A DNA stretch of 64,000 nucleotides. Origin: Watersipora subatra. Its lineage: Eukaryota; Bryozoa; Gymnolaemata; Cheilostomatida; Watersiporidae. Position numbers and translations under genes: made by a program. Below are positions 18,360-61,800 of this stretch, piece after piece; position 1 is the first letter of the stretch; each line of letters opens with the position of its first letter. The notes under the pieces are model-generated. The model ran no database searches, was not told the DNA's origin, and saw only the letters and a program-made list of their open reading frames with translations. Location: assembly GCF_963576615.1 (NCBI RefSeq), contig NC_088709.1, positions 76,738,538 to 76,802,537 on the forward strand, written 5' to 3'.

Positions 18360-19894
18360 CAGATACAGACACGCCTATAGTGCTAGCTTCTTCTCCCGCC
18401 TGAAGAGGATGTGGAGCTGGCATTGACTCAGATACACGGATAGCCTGAGATCCAATTTCTGCATGATCTGATTCATCGCTGCTGGAGTTGTCTCTGCCTT
18501 GCAGTTCAGATTTCTCATAGAGACTGCGGTACTGGCTGCAGAAGATAGCAATGGGCTAATAAAGCAAAGCTAAAAAGACCACATTTACACAGTTTTTGTA
18601 TTAATATAAAGTACATTACCATGTTTTAAGAAATAAGATAAAGATTTCTAGTAGAATGCAAGTCTTCTGACAGACTTTGAAAATTCCAAATGACAGTACA
18701 AATAACTGCTCAACTTAGAGATATTCTGAACTTTAAATTGTTATTAAAAATGGCAAAACAGCAGTTTCAGGCAACCACACATCTTCTACTGTTGCTGTTT
18801 GGAAATACACAATAGATTTATACGCAATAGAGTGGTTATACGCAATAGAGTGGTTATACACAATAGAGTGGTTATATGAAATAGAGTGGTTATATGCAAT
18901 AGAGTGGTTATACGCAATAGAGTGGTTATACGCAATAGAGTGGTTATACGCAATAGAGTGGTTATATGAAATAGAGTGGTTATATGCAATAGAGTGGTTA
19001 TACGCAATAAAGTGGTTATACGCAATAGAGTGGTTATACGCAATAGAGTGGTTATACACAATAGAGTGGTTATATGAAATAGAGTGGTTATATGCAATAG
19101 AGTGGTTATACGCAATAGAGTGGTTATACGCAATAGAGTGGTTATACGCAATAGAGTGGTTATATGAAATAGAGTGGTTATATGCAATAGAGTGGTTATA
19201 TGCAATAGAGTGGTTATACGCAATAGAGTGGTTATATGAAATAGAGTGGTTATACACAATAGAGTGGTTATACGCAATAGAGTGGTTATACACAATAGAG
19301 TGGTTATATGAAATAGAGTGGTTATATGCAATAGAGTGGTTATATGCAATAGAGTGGTTATACGCAATAGAGTGGTTATACGCAATAGAGTGGTTATACA
19401 CAAATACCTCTACAAGCACCACCAAAAATTGATGAAAAGTGAATCATTACCGCTCTGCTCGATAATCATCAAATGTTGGTTTCACATCGTCTTGTTCTGG
19501 GCTCATCAGACCATCGGCAAGGTTTATAGTTGTTTCTGTGAATGGAGTTATCGCACCTTGGTACGCATCCTCACTATCATTGTCTTCCAATGCCCGGCTT
19601 GATTTATCACCTGCAATGATTTCAAAAAAACCTATATGCAAGGGTAATATAGAGCAGTATGATTCAAGAGAGAGAATATAAATGTATAGACCTTTGTAAA
19701 CATACAGCCTTACCTCCATGAGTATGCAGAAAGCTATCTGGGTCCATGTCCCTTTCACTGAAAGGAGTCACAACATCTGTAGTCACCTCTGTCATACTAC
19801 CATCACTCAGGTCACTGTCATCAGAGTCAGTATCATCGCCGAGGGTATGACCGAATGGTAATGGAGTACCCTTCATGGCATCTTTGTTGCTTTT
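18360..19894 (-). CDS. Acidic Ser/Asp-rich linker after AAA3, 3 exons (19714-19894, 19451-19610, 18360-18535)
   Basis: Three exons continue the frame from AAA3 (phases 0, 1, 2) and end with one base left over at 18360 (donor CTG|GTTAGT). In ordinary dyneins AAA4 follows AAA3 within a short linker; here about 170 residues of acidic, low-complexity sequence are inserted. Examples are DDTDSDDSDLSDGS, ALEDNDSEDAY and GRDNSSSDESDH. The first two exons share a motif, VVTPFSERD and AITPFTETT, suggesting an old internal duplication. No known domain is recognised; the segment is probably disordered and rich in casein-kinase-like sites. Splice sites are good, including GCG|GTAATG at 19451. A dense 18-bp repeat array begins about 45 bp downstream of the 19451 donor, between it and the next exon. 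Confidence 0.75.
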
Positions 19895-34800: not shown

Positions 34801-37800
34801 ATACGTACTGCGAGAGCAGCATAGACTCTGCTTTGCCCGTCCTATCAAATGTGTCATGATACAATGTAATGAAAGGGTTAAAATATAAAAACTTTGTAAA
34901 CTGTTAAACCTTGGCCTTGACCCTCAGATTGAGTAGAACTATTAACTGAAGATCGAGGGAAAGTAAATAGTTTAACTGTGGGCTAGCATAATGATATTAT
35001 ACTAATATTCAAATGTTGACGCTAATCTAGTTTGAGTTAGGAACTGCGAGCAGACAGTAGGTACTCATCAAGGGATGACTGCAGAGGACTAATTCAGGAG
35101 ACAAAACTGTGCTTTATTAAGTGTTGTTCATTAATTAGATGTCAGATAACTAACATGATCTCTTATATTATCTACATTTATCACCTTTGGGTGATGTCAT
35201 TCAGCATGGCTCACAACTAGTAAAGAATGATGGAAGAATGTTCTGAAATGTATCACCATCAAAGTATCCAAATATATAATATATATACCGTATATACACT
35301 ACATAAATAATATAACATAATATATAGTGCATGTATAATTGACACGCTTCATTAAGTGTTCTCTTTAAAAAAAGAACAGGTCACCAGATTCTAATTCCAG
35401 TGAGAAATTTTAAACTTAAAGGTTGACTTGCAACAAAATTCACATTACAGTTATTTGGTATCAAAATATTCACCATGTCTTACTCTGCTGTGTTGTAGAT
35501 GCAAAATATGTGATAATGTGATTACAAGCTTTGAAAAGCTCAAAAACGAAAAGCCGCCGTAGATTAAAATCAGTTTATTTCTCTGATGTAGTCATTACAT
35601 TTGGTTATTGTTTTGTCACGTGATGTTCTCACGTGAATTGAAAGGCGAATAAAAGGGTGGATATAAAACCTCTCGTAGCACTAGTTTATGACCAACACTT
35701 CGGGTTTTACCGAAAACCCCGTATCGAATATAGATGCTCGCTACTTTACAGTTTTGTTTCGGCTTGGTCTAATCATCTAGTCGTAATCTGATCATGTGAC
35801 CCATACTTCACGAATAATTTCTGCAGCATTTTCCGATTATCACAGGTGACCAACAGGCTCGTCAAGTTTATCAGACAATAATATGTACTCCTTCGAGCTA
35901 AGGTTAAAAATTTAAACGAATTTTTACGGTAGGTTATAGGATATCAGTGCTGAAAGTGACAGCATTACAATGACGATAAAATAGACACGTAAAAACAATA
36001 GACATGGTTTTATTGGATGCGTGAAGTATATTTGCACAAATATTTTGACGAATGAGGTTGCGTAAAAATGTAAAAAGAAACCATCTTGTACAACTGCGTC
36101 CCATTTGAACCATTTTGGAAAGAGATTCCAAACTACGGCGGTCTCGTGTGGCTGCGATTAACTGCTCGTTTTTTAGATTTTAAAAGCTTAAAATCACATA
36201 TCCACATAATTTGCACCTACAACACAGCAAAGCAAGACATAGTGAATCTTTTGATACCAAATAACTGTAATGTGAAATCTTTTGCGAGTCAACCGTTAAA
36301 CACGGCAGTCTTAAGCAGAACGTTAAAGTCATCTACCTGTAGAGTTGTGTAAATGTCTGAGCAGAGGTCACGTGTCTGTGGATGCTCCTGAGAAGATGAG
36401 TGAGTGCACCATCTCTCCACACTCCTTCCTCGGAATGTCCAAACAACTGCAAGAAATGATATAAATTTGTATTGAACGTGTCTGTAAGACTCATCACAAC
36501 CCAGAATGACTTATGCTGCTGCAAATAGAAGAAATTTTATTATTTTACTCAGCTTCAAAGGTCAGAAAACCGAAAAAAGTGGCAAACCTTTTGTGCAGCT
36601 GATTAGGCATACGCGTATTGCATACAATTATATGTACGTATGACATATTATGTACTTACTTCTTCTTCGCTCATGGCTGATGGACAGAGTGTCATTATAT
36701 GCACCTTCGGGTAGACTACCTCAGCTTCTGGATCTTTCACCAGCGCATGCAAGCTACCGAGTCTGGCAAATGACCTTGACACATTGCCCCATTTTTTGAT
36801 AAGCTGAGATTTTTCCCGGGCTTCGAGTGATTTGAGAAACTAAAAAATGGGCCAGCATTGGTGATGACGGTGAAGAGGAAAATACAATGAATAAGCAAAT
36901 GATCGAACTACATACGTGTATCTCTCTGCTCAATCCTAAATTTGTTTTACCATCTCACATGAATAAGAGTGATTTTTTGTATACCGGGTGCTTATAATAA
37001 GAAAATACATTGCTGGTTTTATAAAATAACATATAATACAAACTCCCCTAGGTTTACAGCTTAAAAGGTCTGTTAACGGATGGCTGAGGTGAGGAGCAGC
37101 GTGTGAGAGCTGAGAAAAGGTTGGCAGCAATGAATCTAACCTTAATTATATCAGCTGTTCTTGGAAAAACCTCGGCATGAACCTCTGAGGCAGAAGTGCT
37201 GAGAAGTGTGGAGGAATTAGAGCTTCTAGCCGACACCGGCCATAATGAGTGCATGTTAGAGGCAAGAGGGGTTATGGGATGAGAGGTTGGATAACTCCGA
37301 AATGGAGAATGATGATCGATAGGAAGAGTTGGTGAGGTAAAATTGTATGCCTAAGCAAAGCAGCGAAGAAAGTTACTTATTAGCTGACACTGCATATGCA
37401 TCTTAAACAGCAGTGTTACTAGTTGCAACAGATTCATGCAGAATAATAGAGTATTCATGCCATAATCATAGGGTAGTCATAAGCCAACCATATGTCGCAC
37501 ACGCTTAGTGTAAACATGTAAATCATGGAGCAATCACGTAGCACAGTAGTAGTGGCTTTGTAAAACTAAAATAGCATATATCTAACATTAGTCAAACAAA
37601 TATTTCTACTACAAGCACAGCATGAGTAAATAGCAGTTATATAGCAGTTACATGGGAATTATATGGTAGTTATATGGCAGTTATATTGCAGTTATATAGC
37701 AGTTACATGGTAGTTATATGGCAGTTATATTGCAATTATATTGCAGTTATATAGCAGTTACATGGTAGTGATATGGTAGTTATATGGCAGTTATATTGCA

Positions 37801-40800
37801 GGTCATATATCAGTTATATGAAAGTTATATGGCAGTAATATGGCAGCCACATAGCAGTCATACAGCAGTTGTATAGCAACTTTAAAGCTCATATATGATA
37901 ATTGTGCAAATTAATTGCCGCAATTTATAGCAAGGAGTTGTTCTCCATAATTAGTATACAGATCTCATCAAACAAGATAAGCAAGCAAGCTGTCGGATTA
38001 CAATGGACGACCTCCAGTGGCACAAGCGAAGCAGATGCGCTGCGAACATATATAAATATTTTACCTCAACCGAGTAAGGGTCACTTTCCTGTTGAAATTT
38101 CAATGAGACAAAATATATGCAATCCAAGAGAGAGTACAACTCTTAAAGGTTGACTTGCAACAAAATTCACATTACCGTTATTTGATATGAAAAAATTCAC
38201 CATGTCTTACTCTGTTGTGTTGTAGGTGCAAAATATGTGGAAAGGTGATTACAAGCTCTTAAAAGCTCAAAAACGAACAGAAAATCGCAGCCACACAAGA
38301 CCGCCGTAGTTTGGATTCCCTTTCCAAAACGGCTCAAATGTGATGTAGTTGTGAGAGATGGTTTCTGTTTACACTTTCTTGCAACCTTATTCGTCGAAAT
38401 ATTTTCACAAATATACTTCACGCATTCGATAAAACTATGTCTATTGTTCTTACGCGTCTGTTTTATCGTCAATGTATTGCTGTCACCTTTAGCACTGATA
38501 TCTTACAACTTACCATAAAAAATCGTTAAACTTTTTAACCTTAGCTCGAAAGAGTACATATCATTGTCTGATAATCATGACGAGCCTGTTGGTTACCTGT
38601 GATAATCGAAAAGTGCTGGAAAAATTATTTGCGAAGTAGTGGGTCACATGATCAGAGAACGACTTGACAATTGAATAATGCCAAAATAAAACTGTAGCGA
38701 GCATCTATATTCGATACGGGGTCTTCGGTAAAACCCAAAGTGTTTGTCATAAACTAGTACTACGATAAGTTTTATATTGAGCTTTTTATTGGCCTTTCAA
38801 TTCATGTGAGAACATACGTGACAAGACGATGACCAAATTTCGTGGTTACGCCACCGAAATAAAGAGATTCTAATCTATGGCGGCTTTTGGTTTTTGAGCT
38901 TTTAAGAGCTTGTAATCACATTTCCACATATTTGGCACTTACAACACAACAGAGTAAGACATGGTGAATCGTTTGATACCAAATAACTGTAATGTGAATT
39001 TTGCTGCAAGTCAACCTTTAAGTAAATCTACATGCTGCCATTCTGTATAGAAAGTTTCAAATGTTTCAAAGTTCCTAAATCCAAGAACAAAAGTTGTACT
39101 AAAACTGAGAGTCATACAAGTTTGCTTCCGAGTGAAACAATGCGTAATGAAACACAACTAACCTTGGGCAGATTCTGTCGAAAGGTTGTCAGAGGCTTGC
39201 TTGGCTGTATCTCCTCGGATAGCTGAGACACGCGTGCCTCATTCTTCCTAGCATGAATTCTGTTAAGCGCTAAACAGAGTGTTTTGTAGATCACAGTCTT
39301 GCCACTTCCTGCTGGACCACAGACTATGACATTCAGGTTCTGTTGCAGCGCGCTGTACAGCTGTAAAATCTTCTCCATTATCTCGTGAGACTCGTGCAGC
39401 CCTGATAAAATTTTGAAATCTTCATAATCTTGCACATCTACGCAAGAATTTCTACGAGTCCGCTGTTACGCATAGACAGCTGCCAAAAACGTTCCAGACT
39501 TTTTAGTCTAACCACCGCAGGTCAGGTGACTCTGTACTCAGAGTTGAACAGGAATGTATTGAATACTACTGAAAGTTGAAACATGATTGACAGAGTCGTG
39601 ATTGGTGTTACATTTTCTTTAATTGTATCAATAAAATTACCTTAACAAAAAGATGAGTGACAATTTGATTTCAGCGCTCCAACCATGTACTAAGAATTTT
39701 TGGGACCAAAAACTAAGACACCAAGAAAGACTTTTTGAACATTTCATTGTAATGTTTTACATTTTTAGTTTTTTGTCAATAATTCAACAAGGGTGATTAG
39801 GGGTAATTTTAGCCGCAATAAGAATATGAGCTTGTATTATAGTAAACAAACAATGACAGCCTTTGTCATAGAAAACTGCAATGACATCATCATTTTGGTT
39901 TTTTAATTGCACTGACTTCTGGTTGGAAATAGAACAAGAAAAACTAACATCTTAGGAGTTATCGCCTCTTAGACACTGATTAGCCAACTTCTCAACCTGA
40001 ACTATTTAGTGCTAAATTATTTCTGATTAAATGTTTAGTAAAGTTTTAGCCTCTGGTACTACAAGTGAGAAGTATTCATACTAGGATTCCTACTAGGACA
40101 AAATATCTAACTCACCAATAAATGATTCTATTTTATGGTGCCACAGTATTTAGGTCAGGAAGGTCAGGTAGGTCAGGAAGAGTGTCGCAGGAGAAATAAA
40201 CAAATCTGCCATACTTACCGTCAGTTCTAAGCTGGTCTTTGATTGCTTGCACCAACTCGGAGTGGTGCACAGAGGGGAGAATTTCAGCTGAGAGAGGAAA
40301 AATGTCTCGCAAAATATTCCTAAATGTGATTAAGTCCGACTCTTTTTCAAAGAGAGGAAGCAATATGGCGGAGAAACCATATACCAATGACACTTCATAT
40401 TTGTCTGGTTTGGGGAGAAGAAATTCATCTGAATAATGAGAGAAAACATACCAAGCTGCGTCTAATATGTAATCTTACGCTGGAGTACAGAATCAGAAGG
40501 GTTGATATGCTACACAAACCTTCTGATGAGTCGATATGTAATATGTAATCTTATGCTGGAGTACAGAATCAGAAGGGTTGATATGCTACACAAACCTTCT
40601 GATGAGTCGATATGTAATATGTAAACTTATGCCGGAGTACAGAATCAGAAGGGTTGATATGCTACACAAACCTTCTGATGAGTCGATATGTAATATGTAA
40701 TCTTATGCTGGAGTACAGAATCAGAAGGGTTGATATGCTACACAAACCTTCTGATGAGTCGATATGTAATATGTAATCTTATGCTGGAGTACAGAATCAG

Positions 40801-43800
40801 AAGGCTTGATATGCTACACAAACCTTCTGATGAGTCGATATGTAATATGTAATCTTACGCTGGAGTACAAAATCAGAAGGGTTGATATGCTACACAAGCC
40901 TTCTGATGAGTTGATATGTAATATGTAATCTTACGCTGGAGTACAAAATCAGAAGGGTTGATATGCTACACAAACCTTCTGATGAGTCGATGAACTGACG
41001 ACGATCAAAAGCTGGACTGTAGAGCCTCTCAACAGAAAGCTGGAGAGCTTGAAGGAGAGACTTGAGGGAAAGTCTGCAAAAGACAATGTGAATGAATAGA
41101 GGAGAAGATAAGGCAGAAATGAGAGTACTGTAAAATATGAGTAATAGTATGGACAGAAATGAAGATGAGAGAAAATGGGAAGAGAAGTCATGAGTAAAAG
41201 AGAGACACTCAAGATAGAATGTGATCAACTAAAAGGTCAACAAGGATGTGAAATGAAAGGAGAGACTCTGAGAGAGGAAAAAAAAAATACAGACTGTTGA
41301 GAAAGATGAGAAAATGGCTGCTCACCTGAATGAACCGATTTGGTTCTGACAGAACTCGCTGAAAAGCAGAAGTTTGTCGGTGAGTGCCCGAGGGTTCTCA
41401 TAGCCCCAACTGTAGAGGAGCGTTTCTATTAGAACTCGTCGGTCTGGTGCAACCATGGCACACGGCCTCATCAACAGCTGCAGTTTAAAAATAAAACTCA
41501 TAACTAATCTGGCATTACGCTAACAGCACTAATCTCTCCAACAGCCTGGGAGCCTGTGATCACAGAGCCATAAAAAAAGATTGTCGACCCATACCTCTAC
41601 TACAAACTAGGAATGCCACAAGCAAACTTTAATTGAAATAAGAATGTGACCCGATGTGTCATGAGGATCCACTGATTATTTCTAAAGCTAACTTATTCTA
41701 ACTGTAAATATTTTTCCAGATAGTAATTCAAAGTCATGGCAAACTTAGCACTAAAAAGTGGAGATCAAGGTTGACATATACATGTTCAAATCCTAAAGAG
41801 CTTTTGTTTTAAAACTATGCCTAGGTGTCCCTAGGTAGCCTTCTCATTGAGTGCTAGTACTATGATAAGTAGAAGTGTCAGCCGATAGAATTGAGCGGGT
41901 CCATTTAAACTCACCAGCGGTTTACGACATTGACTGAAGCGCTATAGACTGCGCTGGTCAACATACGCCTATAATTTATATTTTTTACTGACGATAAGCA
42001 CAGTATATTAGATCGGAAGAGAAATATAAAAATAATTTGAACAGATTATAAAACTATGTTAACCCTCGTTTTTCATATATGTAGGACAATAGGCAATCTA
42101 TAACGCATCCTTAAAATACCAATGTTAAATTCTGATCATAAGAGGATATGAGATTTACACTTCGGTACAGTATAAGCCATCATGCTATTACTTACTGAAA
42201 ACACATTCATAGATGTTCTTATCCCTAAACTTACCAAAAAATTTTTCATAAACAAATACAGAGATGGTACAACACAAACACAGAAATAGATATATCTATT
42301 TCTAGACCTCCCTGATTTACTTACCCGGAGTGATTCTGGAACTTCCTGGTATCTCGAGGCATCGCTATTGAAGACCATAAAGAAGGCGCTATTGTCACGG
42401 GCTGGTATGAGACGGCCTCCATACATAATGTCACCAAGATATCGAGGTTGGTAGGGTATGGGCTGACTAACTAGATGTCTGTTGTCACCTTCTTTCTGTG
42501 CTTCAAAGGAAGCCTTCTGACTCGGGACATTATCTACAGGTAGGGAGAACAGGCGAGGTATTAACCCCCTTTAATTTTACATTATACATCTTTTACTCGC
42601 TCTTTTATAGCATAACTTGGAAGCATGAAACGCTTGTGTGGTAATGTTTAAAGACTAACATAAAAAGCAAGAACAAGCAAAAGAAAGAAGTCAAGAACAG
42701 CTCAAAGGATAACATCTATAAAAGCGTGTATGTAAAACACATTCCAAGTCCTGAGAGTCCTTAGCAATGTGCTATATCAAAGCATCCTAACTCAAAGCTT
42801 AGAATCTACCATAGAAAAGGCTGGGAAGTGGACTTTCTTTGTAAATCTCAGACTCTTTCAAAGAGCTCCCTTCTCCAATTGAGTGTCTCCGTTTTCTTTC
42901 TGATCCAGATACACTGTCAGTTGTCTTCTCCTGAAACAGAACAGAAGTCTAGTGCCTTTTTGAATAGCCATATTAGGTGACTATAAAAGAGCAAAAGCTT
43001 GCTTTTTCAAAAATAATATCAGACAAAATTTTCTGTTTGAACCCATCAAAAGCTCACAATTGAAAGATTGGCAAAATCTAATTAACCAGAAGAACAACAT
43101 TAAAAGGTAAATGAGCAATAAGGAGGCTGATGGACAATGATGAAAGTGTTTATAAGAATAAGTAATGAATTCATAAATTCTCTCACTATGTTAAGGCTAA
43201 TGAGTCAAGCATCCAATGCCTATCTCCAATAAAAGCTTACACAAATATCTATTTTATTATTGGTTGAATAAAACTAGCACGCTAGGAAACAGGCAAATAT
43301 GGGGTAGCTCTATAGGAAGCAGGTGCATATGGGTAGCTCTATTGAAAACAGTTTAATCAGCCAATGCTTTATTTGGAATAGTTGTGTTCAGTGATTCTGC
43401 CAATTTAATTGCAAGCAGTTTGTGTTACCTGCAATTTTTAGTGTTCAAACTTTAGCACAAGGTTGGCAATACCTTGTGCTAAAAAAGGCAGTGCCTACCT
43501 GTTCTGGAATGAATGTGTTAACTTGAGAGAGGAGACGAGGAGTTTTGGTTGGTCTAATGGTTCCTTCATCCTGAGGGAGAGTGTGCAAAGTAGTCAGCGA
43601 GTTCCTCCGAGGAAGTTTCAGAGGCTGCAATAATAGAAGGATAGTTCAATACAAACCAATAAGACAAAAACAAAGATCTTGTGTCAAGTGAAGGTCAAGG
43701 TTTGATGTGATTATTGGCTAATAATGTTGGTGGGGGGAAGATAAGGAATGAATAATTATAAAGGATGCAGGGAGAGACAAGCATAAAGAGTTTAGCACAT

Positions 43801-46800
43801 AATGTAAGGAGTGGAGAGTTAGCTACCTGTTCTGTTACTGGCATCCCTCTAGTAGTGTACTCAAATGCCTGAGAATAGCGGAGGGAGCGAAGTGCCATTG
43901 ATATGCTGCGCAGCTGTTGTGCTGCGACTGACATGAGCTCTACAGTCAATCGATCAGAGTTATCGAAGAGAGCCCAGCAGCCAGACTGCACGACTCCTGA
44001 GAGGATGCGCTGCAGATTGAAGAGGTCAAACTGACTGCTACAGGTCAAAGGAAAGATGGCGGTGCCCAGGATCTATAGAAGAGAAACGATACGATGCATA
44101 GCTGATACACCAACTGCATTGTGTATCATACATGTATAATATAATAGATCATATCACTTTCCTCTCATTAGAAACATCGAGATATATGGATACATTTACC
44201 ACCAGACAGAATGAGCTTGCAGTGTAGCGATAAGAGGTGAACACAAACGCTACAGTTTTCATGTTACAAGTCAGAAATGGTATGAGAATTGTGCCCCTCG
44301 ATTCTCTATGAAAGACCTGGCTGTCAAGTAGCTGTTTTGCCTTCTCGTCTCATCAAAAACAAAAAGCTTTTTGTCATTCCATCAAAGAAAATGATTGGTG
44401 GTTTTAAACTCGTTCTGCTAGTCGTGACCGTGTGACCATTTCTATTAGCATTTGATAAACTCTCTCAATGAACTGACATAAAAATTGAAAGAAATTCTAA
44501 ACACAGAAGAAAAACTGAATATTATAATAGAGATAACTCGCTCATCGCACATTAGAATACTCAAACTACGAAGACTCAAACTACGGAGACTCAAACTACG
44601 GAGACTCAAACTACGGAGACTCAAACTACGGAGACTCAAACTACGGAGACTCAAACTACGGAGACTCAAACTACGGAGACTCAAACTACGGAGACTCAAA
44701 CTACGGAGACTCAAACTACGAAGACTCAAACTACGGAGACTCAAACTACGGAGACTCAAACTACGGAGTGTTTATGTGTAGAAAGTAAAGTTTACTTGTT
44801 GCATTGTTAAAAAGAGCTTAGGATGTCCTCAGTTTTATATTATTGGTGAAAAAATTAACACCGAGTTCTGCTTGTACAGATAGTAACTTTTACAGATGTA
44901 ATGAAGCACAATGATTAAAAAAAAAGTTACTTAAGTACCAATTACTTGTTGATCAACACGCCCATGTAGATGTGCAATAGCCTGTGGCCCTTACAAGAGT
45001 TTTATCACAGCTAATCGCAGGGTGATGCTCGTTAATGGCTGCTTACCTACAATATCTGAGATGTAATGTTGCAACATTGGTAGGCTATAAAGTTTGGATC
45101 AGATGTACTCACAAAATAGAGGTTATTCACAAAACAAGCTTTTGTGTCGGCGGTAAGATCACTATAGAGACAAACAACAAGCTCCAGTCGAAACTGGAGT
45201 CAACACAACGAGTCGCTTACCTTTGATAAAGAGAGAACTGTTTCTGTTTTACCGACACCACTTGGACCCATTACTGTACCAAGCCTGTAATCCTTCATAG
45301 CCATGAGAAGAGAATATTGGACTCTTTCAGTGAGCCCGGTGGTTATGAATGATGTCTTAGGTCCTTGGTACTCATAGCCATATTCATAACTAGAACCAGA
45401 CAAGAGTGAATCAAGCGGTTTCATTTGAGACCTGTTGAGCGTTAAAGTAGGTCGCGCAAGCAGAGACCTGGAACATGAGGCGCTAACAGAAGCCGTTAAA
45501 AGGTAACAAAAGAGAACACTTGAAGAAGAAAAGATATGACAAAGACAAATATGTTAAGAAGCGAGATCATGACAAAAAAGAAGACATGACAGAAAGAGAA
45601 GACATGACAGGAAGAGAGGACATGACAGGAAGAGAAGACATGACAGGAAAAGAGGACATGACAGGAAGAGAAGACATGACAGTAAGAAAAGACATGACAG
45701 GAAGAGAAGACATGACAGGAAGAGAAGACATGACAGGAAGAGAGGACATGACAGGTAGAGAAGACATGACAGTAAAAGAAGACATGACAGAAAGAGAGGA
45801 CATGACAGGTAGAGAAGACATGACAGGAAAAGAAGACATGACAGGAAGAGAAGACATGACAGGAAGAGAAGACATGACAGGAAGAGAAGACATGACAGGA
45901 AGAGAGGACATGACAGGAAGAGAAGACATGACAGGAAAAGAGGACATGACAGTAAAAAGAGAATGTGAATAATAAAATATGGAAAGAGAAGAGAATTGAA
46001 AGAGAGATGAGAGAAAGTACCAAATTAAAAAGAAATATTAAAAGAATATTTTATATTCTGAATTACCTCGCATCAAGTTGTTGAACTTGCAGGGGTCCAA
46101 AAGCATATGTAGAAACCATTTCTATAGAAGTTGTCTGCTTTTCTAACAGTTCTTCTACAAAATTAGTACAGCAATACCGTGTGCGTAATGCCAAATCTTT
46201 TCCGTATTTCTCTATCATGCATGACGCCTCAGAATAGACAAGCGCAACACTGTAAGTTTAAGCTCTTGCTGCATTCTGCAAAGATTTCTTATCTGAAGCC
46301 GATCACAGCCAATACGAATTTGCACAGCAAAAAATATAACAGAAGCTAACACTGGGTAAAGAGCTGTATCACATCTGTGATGCGCAAACTAGCAACTCCG
46401 TTTGGAAAAGGATTCGTGTGAGTCAATACAGTCTGAGCAATGAGAAAATACTGATGAGTGATAGCAACATGGGAAGACAACTGTCATATATGGTTTCCAG
46501 GAGAGTAAAATTCAAAGTTGCTCATTATTAAGGTCCACTCTGAAAGGTTAGCATGCCGGTTAAGGTGAAATACATGAGTGTAAGGGAAGACAACCTAAAA
46601 TAATTATAAAAAAACATCAGCTGAAGATTGTCTGACTAAGGTCTACCACAAGTCTCTATGACTTTGTTATTACCAGCTACAGCGACTATGAGACGTACTA
46701 ACTAGTAACTAGTAACTAACAACTAGACTATAACTGCGGCTAGCTATTGGACAATCTTTCAGATTAACTGACCAATCATTTAATTACTTAGGATGTTTAT

Positions 46801-49800
46801 TGGCAAATAAAATCACAGCTCAACCATTTAAATATGGATAATGAAGCGGAAGCAGCCAACACATCGTTCCTTACCTCCGAGTGCATTGATGACTACTCGG
46901 AACTTGCTTCCTGATAAACAATGCAGGTGGCACATGAAGACGGTTTGTTCATCAAACGCACAGACAGTCAAAAGTAATAATGTCATTGCTGCGGTTTTAG
47001 TAGCATCAAAATAATGAGATTGATCTAAGTTGGTTGAAAAATTGCTACTGATGGTGTAGTCCTGCTTGAGTAAGATCACGGTATGAATGTCCAATACCAC
47101 TGATGTGCTCAATCGTATAGGAAAACTTTGTTAGCATCATAACATGAATAAGGAATGCTGATGATGTAATAAAGAAGAGAGCATAAAACTGCATACCTCC
47201 ACTCAAATAGCTCGTCTGACGCCTAGAAGCTGGTGTGGCAGAAGCTCTGGGAGACAAAGCACCGACGTTGCTTGAGGTGACCCTGAGTGAGCGTTCTCGA
47301 GAAAATGCTGGATCGAGCTTCTCCTCAGTCACCTGCACAAAGGTCTTCGCTCTGAGAAGTGATGAAATCTCCATAGAATATTTTAGGCTGCTTGACCAAT
47401 CATAGCAGTTGCTGCATGAGACATCGGCAGACAGCAACCCTAAAAAAAGGGCCCAGATTTTTACAAGATATTCTAACAATGAAATGACCAGGCTTCCACT
47501 AGCTGACAATGTACTCAAACGAAGAGATACACCGGCTTTTTTAAGATGACATTCAGTACTCCATAAAACCGTAAAAAACCTAGGTTCAAGCCAGAACGCT
47601 GGCTAAAAGCTTTTAATAGAGGATTTCCCACCGACAATCTAACTCAGGCTAATAGTTCGTTACTACTCTTATGTGCTAGGCTAGTAAAGATATATGACCA
47701 AAATAAGATATAACCGATATGGCTAGAAAAAGAATGAAGAGAGACTAACTGTCAGTCAAGCTGATGAGTTGGGTATAGCAATTTACTAGTCCTCTCAGCA
47801 CAAGACTCAGCCTCATTCTGGAATATTCCACTCTTGTGTGTAAGAGACTGGAATTCTCTCGAATCACTAAAACTACTCTTTCCATTTTTTGCTGCAATGA
47901 GTTCCTGCAACAGACACTTAGGATGAGCATACAACAAGAAATAAGATCTTCAGATAACCAGTGCATATTATTTGCTTTTAAAAGGTAACACTTTCCTTAA
48001 AAATCGTCGCATAAATATTTTGAATGGCTTTGAAATGTTTTCAAAATTACACAAACCAAAAAAACTAATTCTCGAAAGTATTTGTGTTTGACAAGTAGAG
48101 ACAAGTGCCAGGCAACAGGTGCTGAGCATAATAAAGATGAGCATACCTAAGAGCAGCAATCTCTCGTCGAACATCAGTGGAAGACTTCAAGGCCTGAGTC
48201 ATCTTGTGTGACCAGAGGATCTGTTGCGTTGTTATGAGACACTGCGATGGGTACTTCAAGAGTCTGAAATATTACAGGCACATGAATGCACTAATAAAAA
48301 CAACAGTGCACTTGAATACACTACAATATCAACTCTCTCCTACAATGAACAGCATACAATATCAACTCTCTCCTACAATGAATAACATACAATATCAACT
48401 CTCTCCTACAATGAACAGCATACAATATCAATTCTTTCCTACAATGAACAACATACAATATCAACTCTCTCCTACAATGAACAGCATACAATATCAATTC
48501 TTTCCTACAATGAACAACATACAATATCAACTCTTTTATAGAATGAATAACATACAATATCAACTCTCTCCTACAATGAACAACATACAATATCAACTAT
48601 TTCCTACAATGAAAAGCATACAATATCAACTCTCTCCTACAATGAACAGCATACAATATCAACTCTCTCCTACAATGAACAGCATACAATACCAATTCTT
48701 TTTTAGAATGAACAGCATACAATATCAACTTTCTCCTACAATGAATAACATACAATATCAACTCTCTCCTACAATGAATAACATACAATATCAACTCTCT
48801 CCTACAATGAACAGCATACAATATCAATTCTTTCCTACAATGAACAACATACAATATCAACTCTCTCCTACAATGAACAGCATACAATATCAATTCTTTC
48901 CTACAATGAACAACATACAATATCAACTCTTTTATAGAATGAATAACATACAATATCAACTCTCTCCTACAATGAACAACATACAATATCAACTATTTCC
49001 TACAATGAAAAGCATACAATATCAACTCTCTCCTACAATGAACAGCATACAATATCAACTCTCTCCTACAATGAACAGCATACAATACCAATTCTTTTCT
49101 AGAATGAACAGCATACAATATCAACTTTCTCCTACAATGAATAACATACAATATCAACTCTCTCCTACAATGAACAGCATACAATACCAATTCTTTTCTA
49201 GAATGAACAGCATACAATATCAACTTTCTCCTACAATGAATAACATACAATATCAACTCTCTCCTACAATGAACAACATACAATATCAACTCTTTTATAC
49301 AATGAATAACACACAATATCAACTTTCTCCTACAATGAACAGCATACAATATCAACTCTCTCCTTCAACAAACAGCATACAATATCAACTCTCTCCTACA
49401 ATGAACAGCATACAACATTTCCAAATTTCAAGTTGTTGTAACTACTGCAGTCATGCAACATATAAGTTTACATAGCACAGCTTTAGTTTGACCTTGACAT
49501 GGTTTCTGATGGTTCAAGCTGTAAAGTTTTAAAACTTCACCAAGTCTTACCTGTGAGTCCAAAGCTTCATCTCTCTGGTCAAGTGAATAGGAAGTCTCAC
49601 AGAATGCCTAGTGTTATCTTCCACTTCCTTAGCTTTTCTCTCTTCTTCCATGCTTGCTACCTCAGCCAGTACAGACACAAGATCTGGATTGTCTACAAAA
49701 ATATACAACAATCATGATAATATAAACATATGAACAAAAACAGGAAAAGCTATTCACATATTTGACAGGCAATGAGCAAAATGATAAAATTAAAGGTACC

Positions 49801-52800
49801 TATACCAAAAATGAGCACAACAGTTCTATCTGTAAACTCCTCTATGCTGATTGCAACTATTAGCACATGATCACATTACTTACACACTTGTAATCTTTTT
49901 TCTACATTTTACACACAGAGCATGAACTGTATGTACATAAGACACTCAAACAGCGAGCAACTTTTCTGATAGGTACATTCCGCAGTGAAGCCTGTACAGA
50001 GAGTTAGTCTTACTTGTCCCGCTTTCCTTACAAGTAGGTACTTACTTACCTAGTGGGTACATGCAGAAATAGCGCATTGTTTGTAACACAGTAAGACAAT
50101 CGCCAACTAGCCTGAGAAAATAATATGGAAGGAAGCTTCACTCAAACAATAGTAAATATTCTTATGTACATAGCTCAACTTGGCATAGATTAATCACTTA
50201 AAGCTAGCAGTGAAGTAGTAACTACGTAATTGAACTACGTCTACTAGTCCATAGACATCTACTAGTCCATAGTCATCTACTAGTCCATAGAACTGACCAA
50301 TAAATACTTCTGATAATGTCGCATAGACCACTTTTAAAATACCCTCATCTGCTGTAACCTTTTAATATAACTTTACATGTACACACTTTGTACCAATCTG
50401 GGTGCTCACCATTATATAGGTGCTCTAACAGGCAGTTCTGTAGCTGGCTTTGTAGGGTTTGCCTAAGTTGTTTGTCAAGTTGTGAGAGCCAAGAAGGGCC
50501 ATGGTGGAGAGCTCCTACTCTCTCTAGCAATGGCACACACTCGTCATGCTCTCCGAATATGCAAACTGCCTCTAGTTTGTCTCCTGAAAGTATTATAACA
50601 AGTCGAGTTATTCAGTCGGAAGATGAAAAGAAAGATCTAAGATTTTGTATATACTTACGATTGACTGAAAAATAAAATAGCGGTCGACTTACAATACAAA
50701 AACAGCATTCGACCTAATGTACTAGTTTTGGTATAACTCATAAGACAGAATCAGCTGATACCCTTAAAATTTACCATTAAGTTGGTAGTCTAAGGCTACA
50801 TTAGCTGAGTTCTGGAAGTCATCAGGAAGCTTGAATCGTAGTGAGTCCAGTGCTGGAAAGCATTTCCTGGCAATAGGAATAAACTGCTGTGGAGATCTGA
50901 TTACTGACATCATATGTATGACATCATCGTCTGTGACAAAGTAAAGTCGGGGAAAGGACTGACGCAATTGTTCTATCTGTGAGCTGAAGTCCTTCAAGAT
51001 GGCTTCCTACAAGTGACAGTGTAGAGTTTGTGCAAGTTCTTTATGACGTCAGACAATGTATAACACACTTTACATATATTTATGTATGGACTATTCTTAA
51101 GACAGTATGCATACCTCAGCGATTACCATCTGAGTGAACATTCTACGTAAGTTCTCTCCTTGAATGGTCTTGTATCCTTTCTCTCCTCTAACACGTGAAG
51201 TGATGGACATAACTCCTGTGAAGAGAATATACTATCGCCTTAATTGTGTCACAAAAACAAGCTTTAGTAAGACACTACTTGATACATGACAGTTTGCTAA
51301 ACATCTAGGAGTGATTGCGGGAAGCAATACCTGGATCAGCGAGGATTGACCTCTGAATGTCCTTCATTTGTGAGTGAACCTCTTCAAAAGAGAAAGCTTG
51401 AGTAGACATTCCGGTGTACAACTTGGGGTCTTCAAACAGCTTCATTAGATAGAGCCACTAAAATACAAAAGAAACACATTTACCTGAATTCTGTCAGTAT
51501 AAAAAAAATCAGGTAATCACAATCTGCATAATATCCCCTGTTGTAAGCTTCAGCACTTACCTTGATCTACTAGAAAAAATAAACATTAGAAACCTGCTGT
51601 TTAGCAACTTTAAATGTTATAGTAGCCATTTGATTCTGACAGGAGTAATTATGGATTGCCAGGTTTGTCATTGTATCACCATAGATTGACAGATCTGAAA
51701 TGACTTGTCATACATTGACAGGTCTGACATGACTCACCTTAAACTGGCAAGTCTGACATGACCCACCTTGGACTGGCAGGTCTGACATGACTCACCTTAG
51801 ACTGGCAAGTCTGACATGACCCACCTTGGACTGGCAGGTCTGACATGACTCACCGTAGACTGGCAGGTCTGACATGACTCACTTTAGACTGGCAGGTCTG
51901 ACATGACTCACCTTAGACCGGCAGGTCTGACATGACTCACCTTAGACTGGCAGGTCTGACATGACTCACCTTAGACCGGCGGGTCTGACACGACTCACCT
52001 TAGACCGGCAGGTCTGACATGACTCACCTTAGACCGGCAGGTCTGACATGACTCACCGTAGACTGGCAGGTCTGACATGACTCACCTTAGACCGGCGGGT
52101 CTGACACGACTCACCTTAGACCGGCAGGTCTGACATGACTCACCTTAGACTAGCAGGTCTGACATGACTCACCGTAGACTGGCAGGTCTGACATGACTCA
52201 CCTTAGACTGGCAGTTGAGCCAGAGAAGGAGCAGCTCCTCAATCTCCCTGAGTTTGTAGTGGAGAGACTCAGTACTTGCTCGGAAACCTGCTATATAGGG
52301 AGAGGAAAGCATTTGCCGCAGACTCACTTGGCTATCCTGAAAGAAAAAAGAAACAAGGAATTAGTCTATAGGAATTTATTTTTCAACTTCCTTTTTTATG
52401 AAAAGAGGCTTGCTACCAACCTCTAGCAAATACTGAAGCTCCTCGGTCTCTATGAGTATGTAAAGGTCATCTGTAGTTGTATCGAGTCCCTTGGGGGCAG
52501 GTGCTAGTGGTGTCTGTCTGCTGGATGATCTCTTATCAGCTCCCAGTCTCCTCTGCTCTGTACGAGACTTGTCTGTCAACAGTGAGACTCAACAAGTAGT
52601 TGACTACTAGTTGAGTACTTCATCCAGCGACTAAATCTACTTTCAATTACTTACAATTTTATAACTTATAAATTAGAGTTTTAAAAAACTGATACCATAT
52701 GTTGGATTGATTCACTATGAAAAGTGTTTAAAAATAGACACTATAGTATATTTTTAATTATATATTAATAACTCTACTAAAGTAATAAGAATGTTTGGTA

Positions 52801-55800
52801 AGTTGTTATCAGCAAAACCAGAGAAAAAGTTTTTCAAGAGCGCCAAACAAATCAACAAAGCCTGCTGCAAGGCGAAGCGTATAGAAAGCAAAAATGCATC
52901 ATTTGCTGTTTTTAAACTAATAAATATCTTTCCCATGAAATATAACCAGAGCAATATGAAAGAAAGTAGCAAGCACAGAACTTGAACCTGGAAGATTTTG
53001 TCACAACCCCTATGGGATTGACTAAAGAGAAGTGAGATTTCATAGAGAAGTTACATCAACAGAGCAAAAGCAGCAGCGATTAATGCCCAAAAACATCACA
53101 GGCACGCTAGTTTAATACTTTCAAATAAAGAAAAAGGACAGAAGACATGTTGCCATGAAAGAAAACTCGTGCCTTACCCCAAGATCTCTCCAACCCTCCA
53201 ATAACACCTGATATTATTAAAATAAGTATTAATCCTTGGTGAATTCTGATGCCCAGACTGAAAAAGGCATCTAGGAGCTATCACGAAAGCAATGTGAAAC
53301 AGTTCTTACTAATAGATGTCTTTAATGGACACTTTTATGACAGACAGAAAATGAATTGTAGGTGATTGCAACTCAAATAAGTGAACGGCAACTGAAGAAA
53401 CATATGGTTGAGCCCTTGATTCTTCCATTCACTCGGTCAACAGAAATAAGACAAACATAATGGCCAACAAATAACATCTAACAGATTACAACCATGTGCA
53501 GTAACTAGTAACTAGTGGTGACCATATGTGTGGTCTTTCAATAACGATGTGTGTGGTCTCTAAAATAACTCACCAGCAATAGTGATTACCATCAACTAGC
53601 AGCTAATTATAGCAGGCAGCTTCCAATAATGCCCTACTGGCTCATAATGATTGACCTAAGCTACTGGCTATACACCAATAATTGAACTAACATCAACTAG
53701 CAGTCACCTATCATAGCTACATAGCTAGCGGGTAGCTAGCCCATGTAGAGCAGCACTTACTTGTAGGATTGGCTGAAACAATCAATGCAAATTAATATCA
53801 TGCATTATTCAGAAACTTATTTTTCATTTATATATGTTGCAGATTAAGTATTTCATAAAATAAGGCGTTTCATAGATGCAAACACGTTTAATGCTGGTGA
53901 TAAATATATGAAATGTGTAATTATCTTACAGATGTACAGCTTGATGTACTGCGTTTTAAAGTTCAAGTCAAACAAGCCAAAAGAGAAGTCTTTTCAAGGC
54001 AGTCTCACCGGTGTGTAATCTAAATACGAATATTTCACTCTACTTTAGTACTCTGTAGTCCACTATTATTCACTAGTGTATAATATAAACATGAATATTT
54101 TAATCCACTTTAGTACTCTGTAGTCAACTATTATTCACTAGTGTATAATATAAACATGAATATTTTAATCTACTTTAGTACTCTGTAGTCCACTATTATT
54201 CACTAATGTATAATATAAACATGAATATTTTAATCTACTTTAGTACTCTGTAGTCAACTATTATTCACTAGTGTATAATATAAACATGAATATTTTAATC
54301 TACTCTAGTACTCTGTAGTCAACTATTATTCACTAATGTATGATATAAACATGAATATTTTAATCCACTTTAGTACTCTGTAGTCAACTATTATTTACTA
54401 GTGTACGATATAAACATGAATATTTTAATCTACTTTAGTACTCTGTAGTCAACTATTATTCACTAGTGTATGATATAAACATGAATATTTTAATCCACTT
54501 TAGTACTCTGTAGTCAACTATTATTCACTAGTGTATAATATAAACATGAATATTTTAATCTACTTTAGTACTCTGTAGTCAACTATTATTCACTAGTGTA
54601 TGATATAAACATGAATATTTTAATCTACTTTAGTACTCTGTAGTCAACTATTATTCACTAGTGTATAATATAAACATGAATATTTTAATCTACTTTAGTA
54701 CTCTGTAGTCAACTATTATTCACTAGTGTATAATATAAACATGAATATTTTAATCTACTTTAGTACTCTGTAGTCAACTATTATTCACTAGTGTATAATA
54801 TAAACATGAATATTTTAATCTACTTTAGTACTCAGTAGTCAACTATTATTCACTAGTGTATTATATAAACATGAATATTTTAATCTACTTTAGTACTCTG
54901 TAGTCCACTATTATTCACTAGTGTATAATATAAACATGAATATTTTAATCTACTTTAGTACTCTGTAGTCCACTATTATTCACTAGTGTATAATATAAAC
55001 ATGAATATTTTAATCTACTTTAGTACTCTGTAGTCAACTATTATTCACTAGTGTATGATATAAACATGAATATTTTAATCTACTTTAGTACTCTGTAGTC
55101 CACTATTATTCACTAGTGTATAATATAATCATGAATATTTTAATCCACTTTAGTACTCTGTAGTCCACTATTATTCACTAGTGTATAATATAAACATGAA
55201 TATTTTAATCTACTTTAGTACTCTGTAGTCCACTATTATTCACTAGTGTATAATATAAACATGAATATTTTAATCTACTTTAGTACTCTGTAGTCAACTA
55301 TTATTCACTAGTGTATGATATAAACATGAATATTTTAATCTACTTTAGTACTCTGTAGTCCACTATTATTCACTAGTGTATAATATAATCATGAATATTT
55401 TAATCCACTTTAGTACTCTGTAGTCCACTATTATTCACTAGTGTATGATATAATCATGAATATTTTAATCTACTTTAGTACTCTGTAGTCAACTATTATT
55501 CACTAGTGTATAATATAAACATGAATATTTTAATCTACTTTAGTACTCTGTAGTCAACTATTATTCACTAATGTATGATATAATCATGAATATTTTAATC
55601 TACTTTAGTACTCTGTAGTCAACTATTATTCACTAGTGTATAATATAAACATGAATATTTTAATCTACTCTAGTACTCTGTAATCCACTATTATTCACTA
55701 ATGTATGATATAATCATGAATATTTTAATCTACTCTAGTACTCTGTAGTCCACTATTATTCACCAGTGTATAATATAAACATGAATATTTTAATCTACTT

Positions 55801-58800
55801 TAGTACTCTGTAGTCAACTATTATTCACTAATGTATGATATAATCATGAATATTTTAATCTACTCTAGTACTCTGTAGTCAACTATTATTCACTAGTGTA
55901 TGATATAAACATGAATATTTTAATCCACTTTAGTACTCTGTAGTCAACTATTATTCACTAGTGTATAATATAAACATGAATATTTTAATCTACTTTAGTA
56001 CTCTGTAGTCAACTATTATTCACTAGTGTATAATATAAACATGAATATTTTAATCTACTTTAGTACTCTGTAGTCAACTATTATTCACTAGTGTATGATA
56101 TAAACATGAATATTTTAATCTACTTTAGTACTCAGTAGTCAACTATTATTCACTAGTGTATTATATAAACATGAATATTTTAATCTACTTTAGTACTCTG
56201 TAGTCCACTATTATTCACTAGTGTATAATATAAACATGAATATTTTAATCTACTTTAGTACTCTGTAGTCCACTATTATTCACTAGTGTATAATATAAAC
56301 ATGAATATTTTAATCTACTTTAGTACTCTGTAGTCAACTATTATTCACTAGTGTATGATATAAACATGAATATTTTAATCTACTTTAGTACTCTGTAGTC
56401 CACTATTATTCACTAGTGTATAATATAATCATGAATATTTTAATCCACTTTAGTACTCTGTAGTCCACTATTATTCACTAGTGTATAATATAAACATGAA
56501 TATTTTAATCTACTTTAGTACTCTGTAGTCCACTATTATTCACTAGTGTATAATATAAACATGAATATTTTAATCTACTTTAGTACTCTGTAGTCAACTA
56601 TTATTCACTAGTGTATGATATAAACATGAATATTTTAATCTACTTTAGTACTCTGTAGTCCACTATTATTCACTAGTGTATAATATAATCATGAATATTT
56701 TAATCCACTTTAGTACTCTGTAGTCCACTATTATTCACTAGTGTATGATATAATCATGAATATTTTAATCTACTTTAGTACTCTGTAGTCAACTATTATT
56801 CACTAGTGTATAATATAAACATGAATATTTTAATCTACTTTAGTACTCTGTAGTCAACTATTATTCACTAATGTATGATATAATCATGAATATTTTAATC
56901 TACTTTAGTACTCTGTAGTCAACTATTATTCACTAGTGTATAATATAAACATGAATATTTTAATCTACTCTAGTACTCTGTAATCCACTATTATTCACTA
57001 ATGTATGATATAATCATGAATATTTTAATCTACTCTAGTACTCTGTAGTCCACTATTATTCACCAGTGTATAATATAAACATGAATATTTTAATCTACTT
57101 TAGTACTCTGTAGTCAACTATTATTCACTAATGTATGATATAATCATGAATATTTTAATCTACTCTAGTACTCTGTAGTCAACTATTATTCACTAGTGTA
57201 TGATATAAACATGAATATTTTAATCCACTTTAGTACTCTGTAGTCAACTATTATTCACTAGTGTATAATATAAACATGAATATTTTAATCTACTTTAGTA
57301 CTCTGTAGTCAACTATTATTCACTAGTGTATAATATAAACATGAATATTTTAATCTACTTTAGTACTCTGTAGTCAACTATTATTCACTAGTGTATAATA
57401 TAAACATGAATATTTTAATCTACTTTAGTACTCTGTAGTCAACTATTATTCACTAGTGTATGATATAAACATGAATATTTTAATCTACTTTAGTACTCTG
57501 TAGTCAACTATTATTCACTAGTGTATAATATAAACATGAATATTTTAATCTACTTTAGTACTCTGTAGTCAACTATTATTCACTAGTGTATAATATAAAC
57601 ATGAATATTTTAATCTATTCTAGTACTCTGTAGTCCACTATTATTCACTAGTGTATAATATAAACATGAATATTTTAATCTACTCTAGTACTCTGTAGTC
57701 CACTATTATTCACTAGTGTATAATATAAACATGAATATTTTAATCTACTTTAGTACTCTGTAGTCCACTATTATTCACTAGTGTACGATATAAACATGAA
57801 TATTTTAATCTACTTTAGTACTCTGTAGTCAACTATTATTCACTAGTGTATGATATAAACATGAATATTTTAATCTACTTTAGTACTCTGTAGTTAACTA
57901 TCTCTTACCAGTGTATAATCTAAAGACTAAACTCTGAATAAGACACACATGTGACACATGTACAGTCCCATCAACTTTAATTGGCATGTGGTTACCTGCT
58001 GTATAGATTGTGTCAGGGATATGTTACCTGCTATATAGATTATGTCAGGGATATGCTATCCTGCTGTATAGATTATGTCAGGGATATGTTATCTGCTATA
58101 TAGACTATGTCAGGGATATGTTACCTGCTATATAGACTATGTCAGAAATATGTTACCTGCTATATAGACTATGTCAAAGATATGTTACCTGCTATATAGA
58201 CGCTGTCAGGTATATGTTTGGCCAATTTAAAGTAGATATCATTAGAAGTCCACAACTTTTCTATCTTGTTAAGTTTTTGCTCAAGTCTGTACTCGGCTCT
58301 AGCTCGGGAGAAAATGGCATCTATTAGCCCCTGATGAGAGGCGAGATTGTAGGCGAGCAACTCCTCAACAGTAAACTCCCAGTCATCCTCATATGTCTCA
58401 CCCATTCCAACAAATATGGCATGCCAGTGTGCTGACTACAATAAACAGAGGCTTCCAATGAGCTTTATAAATCTAGTAGAGGCATAAGTAGCCAACATGT
58501 ATGAGAACTTAGAAAAATGACGGCTTGTTCATCATAGAACAGTTGGTAAAAACTTTATATTAGGATTTTGTTTTTAAGATGGCAGATCTACACTCCGGTC
58601 TTGTGTTCTTAAAGAACAGAACTGGCAGAGTACCAGACATTTGCTAACACGCAGGAAAGTCAATTTGGTGCATCTTCATAATACGGACGTAGTATGAGTA
58701 CCTTGAGAGCATCACTAGCCATCCTGTGAAGAAGAGGAAGGTCCTTTTTGAAGTCGTCCAAAGTCTTGAACCAGTGAGCAAGGACACTGTCCCCTGCAGG

Positions 58801-61800
58801 AAGGTAGCTCTGCATTTGTGTTGCTATAGAGAGCCACTCCGTGATCTTATCCAGTGCCTTTTGCGTGCTCATCTGCCCATAGAAAAAGATCTATCACTTG
58901 ACACTCAACTACAGTCAGTAATAGAGTTTAGTAAAGATTGTAAGCCATGGTAACAAGTGGGCGTGTGGAAACCTCTTTTACCAAAGAGATAGAGAGAGAG
59001 TGAGAGAGAGCAACACTTTGCAAATATGTTTATAAATCATCAACTGGAATATGATAAAAAAGGTCTAGAGGCTTAAAAGGAGAACAAGCATTATTAAGCA
59101 TTCTTAGCTTGCTAGCTCCCTTCACTCGCTTTTCAACTGTTCCAATATTTAAAAAAAAATTTCAACTTCCATCTTCAAAAGTCTGGCAGCAATGAAATTA
59201 TGTAAAACTATTTATAGCCAAACCTTCTTGAATAGCTGAGCCTTCCAGTCTTTAATGGCGTGACTAGAGACCTCAACATATTTCCAGAGCTCCTGTCTGA
59301 CTTGCATAGCATCAGCAATCTCCTGCAAAAAGCCAAGCTGATAGCCCTCACCAGCTATGGCCTCCCTCCACTTGGATGCCTGCTCCAACTTCTTTCTCAC
59401 CCTGTAGAACCTGTCCCTCAACTGTAAGAGATCTTGACTGGTTATGCAGGTGTGTGGAACTGTCAAGCAGGCTATTACCAGCTGTTATGGCAAATAATTT
59501 TTTCTAGCTGTTGAAAGGGTGTGACAATTTCAAGTCCTTAATCTGAACACCTTATATTTAGGCTTGAAATAATATCCTCTGCAACAAACTTTATCTGTTC
59601 TCTTCTTCTTTTTTCACAACTCATCACATTATTCTGCTATTCACCTCTCCAATCCTAAGGCTTTTTTTAGATTGTATTTTGTTTAGTTACAGAATATAAG
59701 TCGACTAATCTCGCATAGAAAATCAATTAACCGCATGTCGTAGATATTTAACCAACCAAATGGCATGACTTACATTGTTAACAAATAAAACGACATGTCT
59801 CAGATTGTTAACCAATAAACTCACGTGTCTCATGTCGATTAACATTTTGGTAGGATTCTCATTTGGATTCAGAAATTTTCCAGAAGTTGCGGTTTCTCCA
59901 AGTTTTTCAGCTTCAGCCATGAGAGCCTGCATAAATCCATACAAAACCATTGAGCTGTGATATATTCTCACTAAGTAAAATACAAAACAACTTACCGTTG
60001 TCTGATTGCGGTAAAATACAGTTGAGGTTGAATAGGTTTGATACCTGTGACTGTGGTAAGAAGTTAAGTCAACACTGCAGCACCTTGGCTAATTTAGACA
60101 AGTATAGACCTCATGGTACCAGATTAGACATGTACAGACCTCATGGTATTAGATTAAAAAAGTACAGACCTCATGGTATTAGATTAAAAAAGTACAGACC
60201 TCATGGTATTAGATTAAAAAAAGTACAGACCTCATGGTATCAGATTAAAAAAGTACAGACCTCATGGTCCTCTTCCAAGCTCTTCATAGTGATCGGAGTC
60301 TGCGTATTGATAAACTCAGAAGCATCCTGAATGCGCGTGAGGAACAACTCCCACTGCTGCATCACCTGCCCTTCTAGCCTCTCTTCATCAGCAGTAAGCT
60401 GTCGGTAACTCATTCGCACAACCTCAAACAGCGACTTGATGTACTCGACTTTCTGCTGATAGGCGCCTGTGTCTTTTTTGTACTCATACACTTGCTTTGC
60501 ATAGACAGCGAAGGCTGCTACATCTGTTTCTTTCATCTTCATGTTCTGCGCAAAAATAAAACTTACACACGTTTATGCAAAGTTTGTGGTGAAACCTATA
60601 CTCTTACATATATATCCTCTCAGTAACGTATTGTCATGATATTCTATTGTCAAGTTTTCGATGTTCAAAGTCCTATAACAAAAGACCAAATTTCTTCTCT
60701 CATGTATTGAATCAAACATTATATGAGAATAACGTTCATCCAATTAATTATTATCAGATTGACAAAGATTCAGAAGCATGCAATACCTGGACGATGTTTG
60801 TCATGTCAGCAATGAACTCTCTAGCAAGCTTGAATGACTCATCAGCCACAAACTCAATGATGTCTCGGTAGATATCATTGAGCTTTGGTATAAGAGAGTT
60901 GTGAATGTGAGAACAGTCAATGAGCAGCACCTGCAAAAACAGTAGAATGTCTCAGGCTTCTCACACTAGTAGTTCAGTATGACAGGACACAAGCAGTGAC
61001 CTAGTGGGCTTCTCACACTAGTAGTACAGTGCAACAGGTTAACAGTAAATTGACATGACACAGGCAGTGATATAGGGGGCTTCTCACACTAGTAGTACAG
61101 TACAACAGGTTAACAGTAAATTGACAGGACACAGGCAGTGACCTAGTGGCATACCAATAATAACCTAGACGCATACATTACGTTTTATTAAATATCTCAC
61201 TTGGTTTGTTGAAAGAAACGACTTCTCAAAGTTCTTGATCCTTTCAATCCAAGTTCTGATAACTCCAAGTTGTTGCTAAAACAATTAATGATGAGCATGT
61301 TTGCATGAGGCGTAGTAGAAACTAAGAAAATGGTGATGAAATAATAGCAAATATTTGTATTTTGCAATAGAAAAATATATTTATAAATGCAGGAGTTGAA
61401 CAGTTTATGAAAAGGTCAATGAACAAAAGAGTCTGTGAATACTTAACACTAGATTTCAACAACTAAGCCTGCTATAAGCGATTGGAAAACGTTATACAGC
61501 CAAAGTATAAACTAGGAAAAAGGATAAAGTGCTAGAGCACACAACTCCACACAAGCTAAGTTTCCCGCCTTAAAATCTCCAACAACGGTTCTGGAGCATG
61601 ACAAGCTTGCTAGTCATCATGGTTAGGCAATAACAAGCTGTTAGTCTTCGTCATAGTTGTGGGCAGCTGATAGTTGTGGGCAGCTGATAGTTGTGGGCAG
61701 CTGATAGTTGTGGGCAGCTGATATATGTGATAAGCTGAGAGTTGAATAATACTTAATAACAAGTTACAAGCCCTAGTATGAAAAATTGCTGAATGAGTCA

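Follow-up and report, generated by a model that had tools for sequence, protein, structure and literature searches.

The minus strand of the window, the whole 64-kb stretch of DNA analysed here, carries part of a dynein heavy-chain gene (17444..63137), which was modelled as 47 exons comprising 2418 codons without a stop. The model was generated by a small splice-aware gene finder whose splice-site weights follow the general metazoan consensus without training on the species at hand, and it contains Pfam matches to DHC_N2 (5.6e-68) and AAA_6 (1.8e-50). Dyneins in the PDB match both codons 1-1339 (best 1.6e-56) and the stretch after codon 1339 up to codon 2201 (best 6.3e-31), in homology searches that covered the model without its last four exons (19894-17444) and in which some other exons fell outside the aligned stretches. 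Scans of the window returned no Rfam match at gathering thresholds and no tRNA, and a pattern taken from a mobile-element-like repeat had 0 matches in the genome and viral contig collections searched.

Five exon ends of this gene coincide with tandem repeats, and four of these junctions (60261, 59825, 52202, and 40976) are well supported by protein homology. At 60261, the end of the exon modelled at 60261..60545 on the minus strand, alignments to solved dyneins run across the junction (DHE|ALMAE) without gaps, and at 59825 (MRH|LRDRF) they do so in two of the three printed alignments, the other having a 3-residue gap just after the junction. The junction at 52202 is gapless and conserved, with WLNCQSK|WLYL aligning to WLNCQRN|WLYL of dynein axonemal heavy chain 6, and that at 40976 is gapless with respect to 8glv_Kg (FIDSSE|DEF and FPDSAE|DVL, respectively). 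The fifth exon end, at 58189, is given by the model only and falls in a linker without alignment (query residues 420 to 470).

Tandem arrays across splice donors

At each of these exon ends, a minus-strand array begins within the exon, crosses the donor, and continues into the intron. The array at 60100..60268, a minisatellite with six copies of a 30-31 bp unit (30/61 bp according to TRF), crosses the donor at 60261 and takes in about 8 exonic bases, the last bases of the exon being copy 1 of the array. The minisatellite at 57991..58218 (32 bp unit, seven copies) crosses the donor at 58189 with about 30 exonic bases, and that at 51676..52214 (29 bp unit, approximately 18-19 copies) crosses the donor at 52202 with about 13. 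At 40463..40991, an array of seven 76 bp copies crosses the donor at 40976, takes in about 16 exonic bases, and nearly fills the intron. With TRF scores of 280-988, these four arrays are themselves beyond chance, and the agreement of TRF arrays and gene model bears out the observation, made in an earlier note on this DNA, that the tandem unit starts in the exon and crosses the donor at these four sites. All five modelled exon ends are identical to those listed in that note. The unit lengths given there also hold for the 32, 29, and 76 bp arrays, the unit at 60261 being corrected to 30-31 bp. The fifth array, at 59748..59832 (30 bp unit, two TRF rows), had been described as a decayed form of the same architecture; it does cross the donor at 59825, with 8 exonic bases, but its repeat donors are lost, the GT having disappeared from two copies and the single one remaining scoring -3.6, so that there is no row of donors at this site. 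None of the five arrays extends as far as the acceptor, which is situated 34, 173, 218, 326, and 5418 nt past the array ends.

A copy-by-copy walk through the four better preserved arrays identified an intact GT behind the true donor in 31 of 35 copies (5/5 at 60261, 4/6 at 58189, 17/18 at 52202, and 5/6 at 40976), with AG preceding the GT in most copies of every array. Rows of donors are hence present, but the figure of 6-17 potential donors per array put forward previously was somewhat overstated. Use of any of the 31 intact GT decoys would break the reading frame: for 30 of them, including the five at 60261, the extended exon would contain a stop, and for the first copy at 52202 it would carry a 29-nt frameshift. 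Since 23 of the 35 copies have a donor score equal to or higher than that of the true donor, position alone marks the latter by this score. From protein homology and reading frame, we infer that the donor adjoining the real exon is the one used.

The divergence of the copies shows no clear sign of selection on the decoys. When the four arrays are pooled, the donor 9-mer is changed in 17 of 291 cells, versus 67 of 1029 for the rest of the unit (Fisher P 0.79; five of the nine donor motif positions entered this test at 58189), a result indicative of neither purging nor conservation. In the 60261 array taken by itself the donor motif is changed less (1/45 versus 17/105), which is partly a register effect of an extra base in one copy. 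The most decayed copies at 52202 are the distal ones, with mean identities of 0.55-0.65 versus 0.86-0.92 for the others. This trend is weak at 60261, where the last two copies have identities of 0.80 and 0.76 versus 0.87, yet another copy, the one with the extra base, also stands at 0.76; by the same comparison of copy identities, distal decay is not seen at 58189 or 40976. Taken as sequences, the decoys look neutral and ignored.

Placement of the arrays relative to chance

The window is densely populated by tandem arrays, 37 of which, hand-picked from 59 TRF rows, sum to 16.7 kb of its 64 kb. The 28 arrays located in modelled introns were tested, and the remaining 9 fall outside the model. 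Besides overlapping rows, the selection left out two rows in modelled introns (61971-62015 and 40152-40180, with scores of 51-53), the second of which begins 38 nt after the donor at 40219 and would have raised the number of arrays this close to a donor (50 nt or less) from nine to ten, as well as short rows outside the model, below 5.3 kb (2071-2181, 2240, 3742, and 5210). Under the null model, each array was placed randomly in its own intron, with an exonic overlap of up to one unit minus one base on either side, and a crossing was defined as at least 5 bases.

With minisatellites so abundant in the window, random placement should by itself yield approximately 1.5 donor crossings. The 5 observed among 28 arrays, against 1.5-1.6 expected, correspond to P values (0.009-0.012, or 0.007 with the overlap limited to 30 bases) that are somewhat flattering, since the donor class was chosen in the earlier note after seeing the data. 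The excess persists when the decayed array at 59825 is removed (4/27, P 0.04) and when the test is confined to arrays of roughly four copies upwards (4/18, P 0.02-0.03). Furthermore, 9 of the 28 arrays have their start no more than 50 nt from a donor, where random placement predicts 4.5 (P 0.013). All five crossings occur at donors and none at acceptors, where about 1.7 are expected (P 0.15-0.16; 1.4 expected and P 0.22 under the 30-base limit), and the difference between donor and acceptor crossings has a two-sided P of about 0.01. Donor and acceptor crossings pooled are not significant, with 5 observed versus about 3.2 expected (P 0.17, or 0.11 under the 30-base limit).

A self-match analysis of the exon ends gave a different perspective on the same sites. 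Five of the 47 modelled donors reach an identity of 0.70, one of them (48147, offset 15, chain of 1) in a chance-like manner, the decayed array at 59825 attains just 0.67, and none of the 47 modelled acceptors reaches this value (best 0.62). So much of the DNA in the window lies in arrays, however, that 26.5% of 3000 random positions also reach 0.70, a proportion above the 5/47 of donors, and exon ends are therefore not enriched by this measure.

The possibility that other arrays contain ghost donors, having been born at donors and then displaced, was considered and discarded. The 25 other arrays tested, which are located above 18 kb in the window and were each represented by one unit, show no enrichment of donor motifs (mean shuffle P 0.45 in sense and 0.52 in antisense).

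That the placement of arrays at donors goes beyond coincidence is hence moderately supported, and a special mechanism operating at donors is not proven. The earlier proposal of a recurrent mechanism at splice junctions, as opposed to coincidence, retains the support of the donor excess (5 versus 1.5, P ~0.01), but it is weaker than claimed when donors and acceptors are taken together (P 0.11-0.17).

Mirages and the probable origin of the arrays

Judged by anatomy only, the structure described here is not new, being known as the mirage of amphioxus genes, with a report on Adh in amphioxus reportedly due to Canestro in 2002. Two articles (PMC3087553, PMC3902484) describe amphioxus mirages as minisatellite-like repeats with a unit that spans an exon-intron boundary, in Adh3, the globins BflGb6 and BflGb9, troponin C, and PGBD5, the PGBD5 mirage being added and troponin C being cited in PMC3902484. 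According to these articles, many but not all units carry AG/GT, the boundary concerned may be the 5′ or the 3′ one, and the Adh, globin, and troponin C mRNAs are reported to be normal despite the mirages. Further traits mentioned there are a homogenised cluster interior with the edge excluded, and haplotype length polymorphism or somatic instability. In the case of the lancelet globin BflGb6, the published account places the array at an acceptor boundary and describes splicing as regular.

The dynein arrays resemble amphioxus mirages in that the unit spans the exon-intron boundary, at five sites of which one is decayed, and in that 31 of 35 copies keep the GT, most of them with AG. Their units (29-76 bp) are within or just above the 10-72 bp range of the Adh3 mirage, and shorter than the globin units. 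Unlike the lancelet instances, which include an acceptor (BflGb6), the four to five arrays reported here occur in a single gene and all of them at donors, with 0/47 acceptors involved. A literature search covering titles and the beginnings of abstracts found no report of boundary-crossing arrays in further organisms.

We assign a probability of roughly 0.82 to the reading that the dynein arrays are mirages, in which an exon end and its donor would have been duplicated and expanded into the intron, with the copies drifting neutrally and the true donor being used. In this mirage model, a founding tandem duplication would have taken in the last 8-30 exon bases, the donor, and some of the intron, and ordinary tandem-repeat turnover would presumably have spread the duplication into the intron. 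The exon copy would thereafter be held by coding selection, while the intronic copies, with their donor look-alikes, would be free to drift. The direction of copying is indicated by the residues encoded in the duplicated segment. At 52202, the conserved Cys-Gln of WLNCQ..WLYL lies in the copied part of the exon, and at 40976 the same is true of the D-S-x-E of FxDSxED, common to 8glv_Kg. Because the copied part at these two sites encodes residues found in other dyneins, the exon predates the array and served as its source.

The explanation that competes most directly with a donor-linked origin is pure coincidence, to which we would give somewhat less than an even chance and which is compatible with mirage anatomy. 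In introns rich in minisatellites, some array edges would be bound to hit splice sites, and only those sparing the protein would survive. The abundance of arrays in the window, the pooled crossings (P 0.11-0.17), and the lack of donor motif enrichment in the 25 other arrays are in line with this view; against it stand the excess at donors alone and the donor-acceptor difference (P ~0.01 in both cases), the clustering of array starts within 50 nt of donors (P 0.013), and the repeated reports of such arrays in lancelet genes. A functional role for the arrays, with several copies serving as alternative donors to generate protein variants, seems highly improbable. Its precedent is the human IFI6 gene (6-16, G1P3), where, according to PMC4526556, which cites Turri 1995, a minisatellite provides multiple splice donors and the use of downstream ones gives rise to isoforms. 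The dynein repeat units likewise offer donors at the exon end, and 23 of the 35 copies match or exceed the true donors in strength, but every GT decoy here would break the frame (31/31), unlike the IFI6 donors that yield isoforms, and the repeat donors are not conserved above the rest of the unit in the four arrays.

Recursive or self-correcting splicing, whereby the extra units of an extended exon would be removed again as an intron through AG|GT, would make any choice of donor harmless, and the AG preceding the GT in most copies of the four arrays offers the necessary motif. Also in its favour, the acceptor scores of the copies attain the lower end of those of the modelled acceptors (-0.6 to 6.7) at 58189, where they are -0.8 to 0.7, and at 52202, where most lie between -1.0 and -0.6. 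These scores are no better than marginal, and those at 60261 (-4.4 to -3.7) and 40976 (-1.8 to -1.4) are poor, which makes this process very doubtful. The alternative of intron birth in progress starts from the notion that tandem duplication of an exon end bearing AGGT makes new introns. In intron gain by tandem genomic duplication, the new intron takes its splice sites from the segment that was duplicated, and the dynein arrays resemble this process in that an AG|GT-bearing segment at an exon has been duplicated. They differ from it in that the acceptor lies 34-5418 nt beyond the array at all five sites; the introns were hence not made from two repeat copies, and intron birth appears quite unlikely here. 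In its favour, the lancelet globin authors propose such a model for mirages (PMC3087553), with the arrays as raw material for new introns, a potato case has been reported, and PMC2812944 connects the gain of introns in duplicated human genes with tandem repeats located at exon-intron boundaries.

Within the mirage reading, the restriction of the crossings to donors, based on five arrays with a P of about 0.01, is the part for which no description was found in the literature consulted. A tentative and rather unlikely interpretation is that arrays at donors are tolerated and arrays at acceptors purged, as splice sites would be committed in the order of transcription. If the first of many equal donors wins, the outcome would be correct and harmless; if the first of many equal acceptors wins, it would be wrong and harmful. 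The acceptor array of BflGb6 with regular splicing, as given in the excerpted account, speaks against a strict rule of this kind, and the present sample comprises five arrays.

The question raised in the earlier note, of how the first donor gets chosen, is a fair one, to which the sequence by itself contributes just one fact, namely that use of any GT decoy would spoil the protein. The usual candidate explanations are exon definition and early commitment in the course of transcription, and work on 5′ splice site choice mostly relies on small numbers of engineered sites. Should the first donor always be used, the rows of 5-18 similar, and often equally strong, donors per intron would amount to natural competition experiments on 5′ splice site choice, and, were the transcription-order reading true, the genome would put first-come-first-served donor choice to the test naturally, among rows of equal or stronger decoys. 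With four to five arrays in one gene, this genome would be a rich place for the study of such structures, and the arrays already show that repeats can extend into exon ends with the protein unharmed.

Arrays within introns and at the window edge

Two introns consist almost entirely of a single array: in one, the array at 19941-20624 accounts for 684 of 750 nt, leaving unique ends of 20 and 46 nt, and in the other, the 76 bp minisatellite that crosses the donor at 40976 (40463-40991) contributes 513 of 547 nt, with 34 nt of unique sequence ahead of the acceptor. The 32 bp minisatellite that crosses the modelled donor at 58189 (57991-58218) lies in the same modelled intron as a 65 bp minisatellite detected by TRF (54011-57924; 60 copies, 3.9 kb). 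At the window edge, a 24 bp array (63776-64000) carries TA|GTAAGT in its units on the minus strand, and could represent a further minisatellite extending from an exon across its 5' splice site into the intron, in which case the putative exon would fall beyond the window.

A MITE-like element in dynein introns

Introns of the dynein heavy-chain gene also harbor two copies of an element of ~880 bp, in mutually reversed orientation (35414-36299 and 38142-39023). Its inverted ends, of ~134-139 bp and 86-92% complementarity, identify it by structure as a putative MITE-like mobile element.

LHFPL gene pieces

On the plus strand, opposite to the dynein gene, two pieces separated by minisatellites (10799-11483 and 14863-15129) match Pfam PF10242 (E 5.6e-9 and 3.7e-11, respectively), and are predicted on this basis to belong to a gene encoding a Lipoma HMGIC fusion partner-like (LHFPL) membrane protein.
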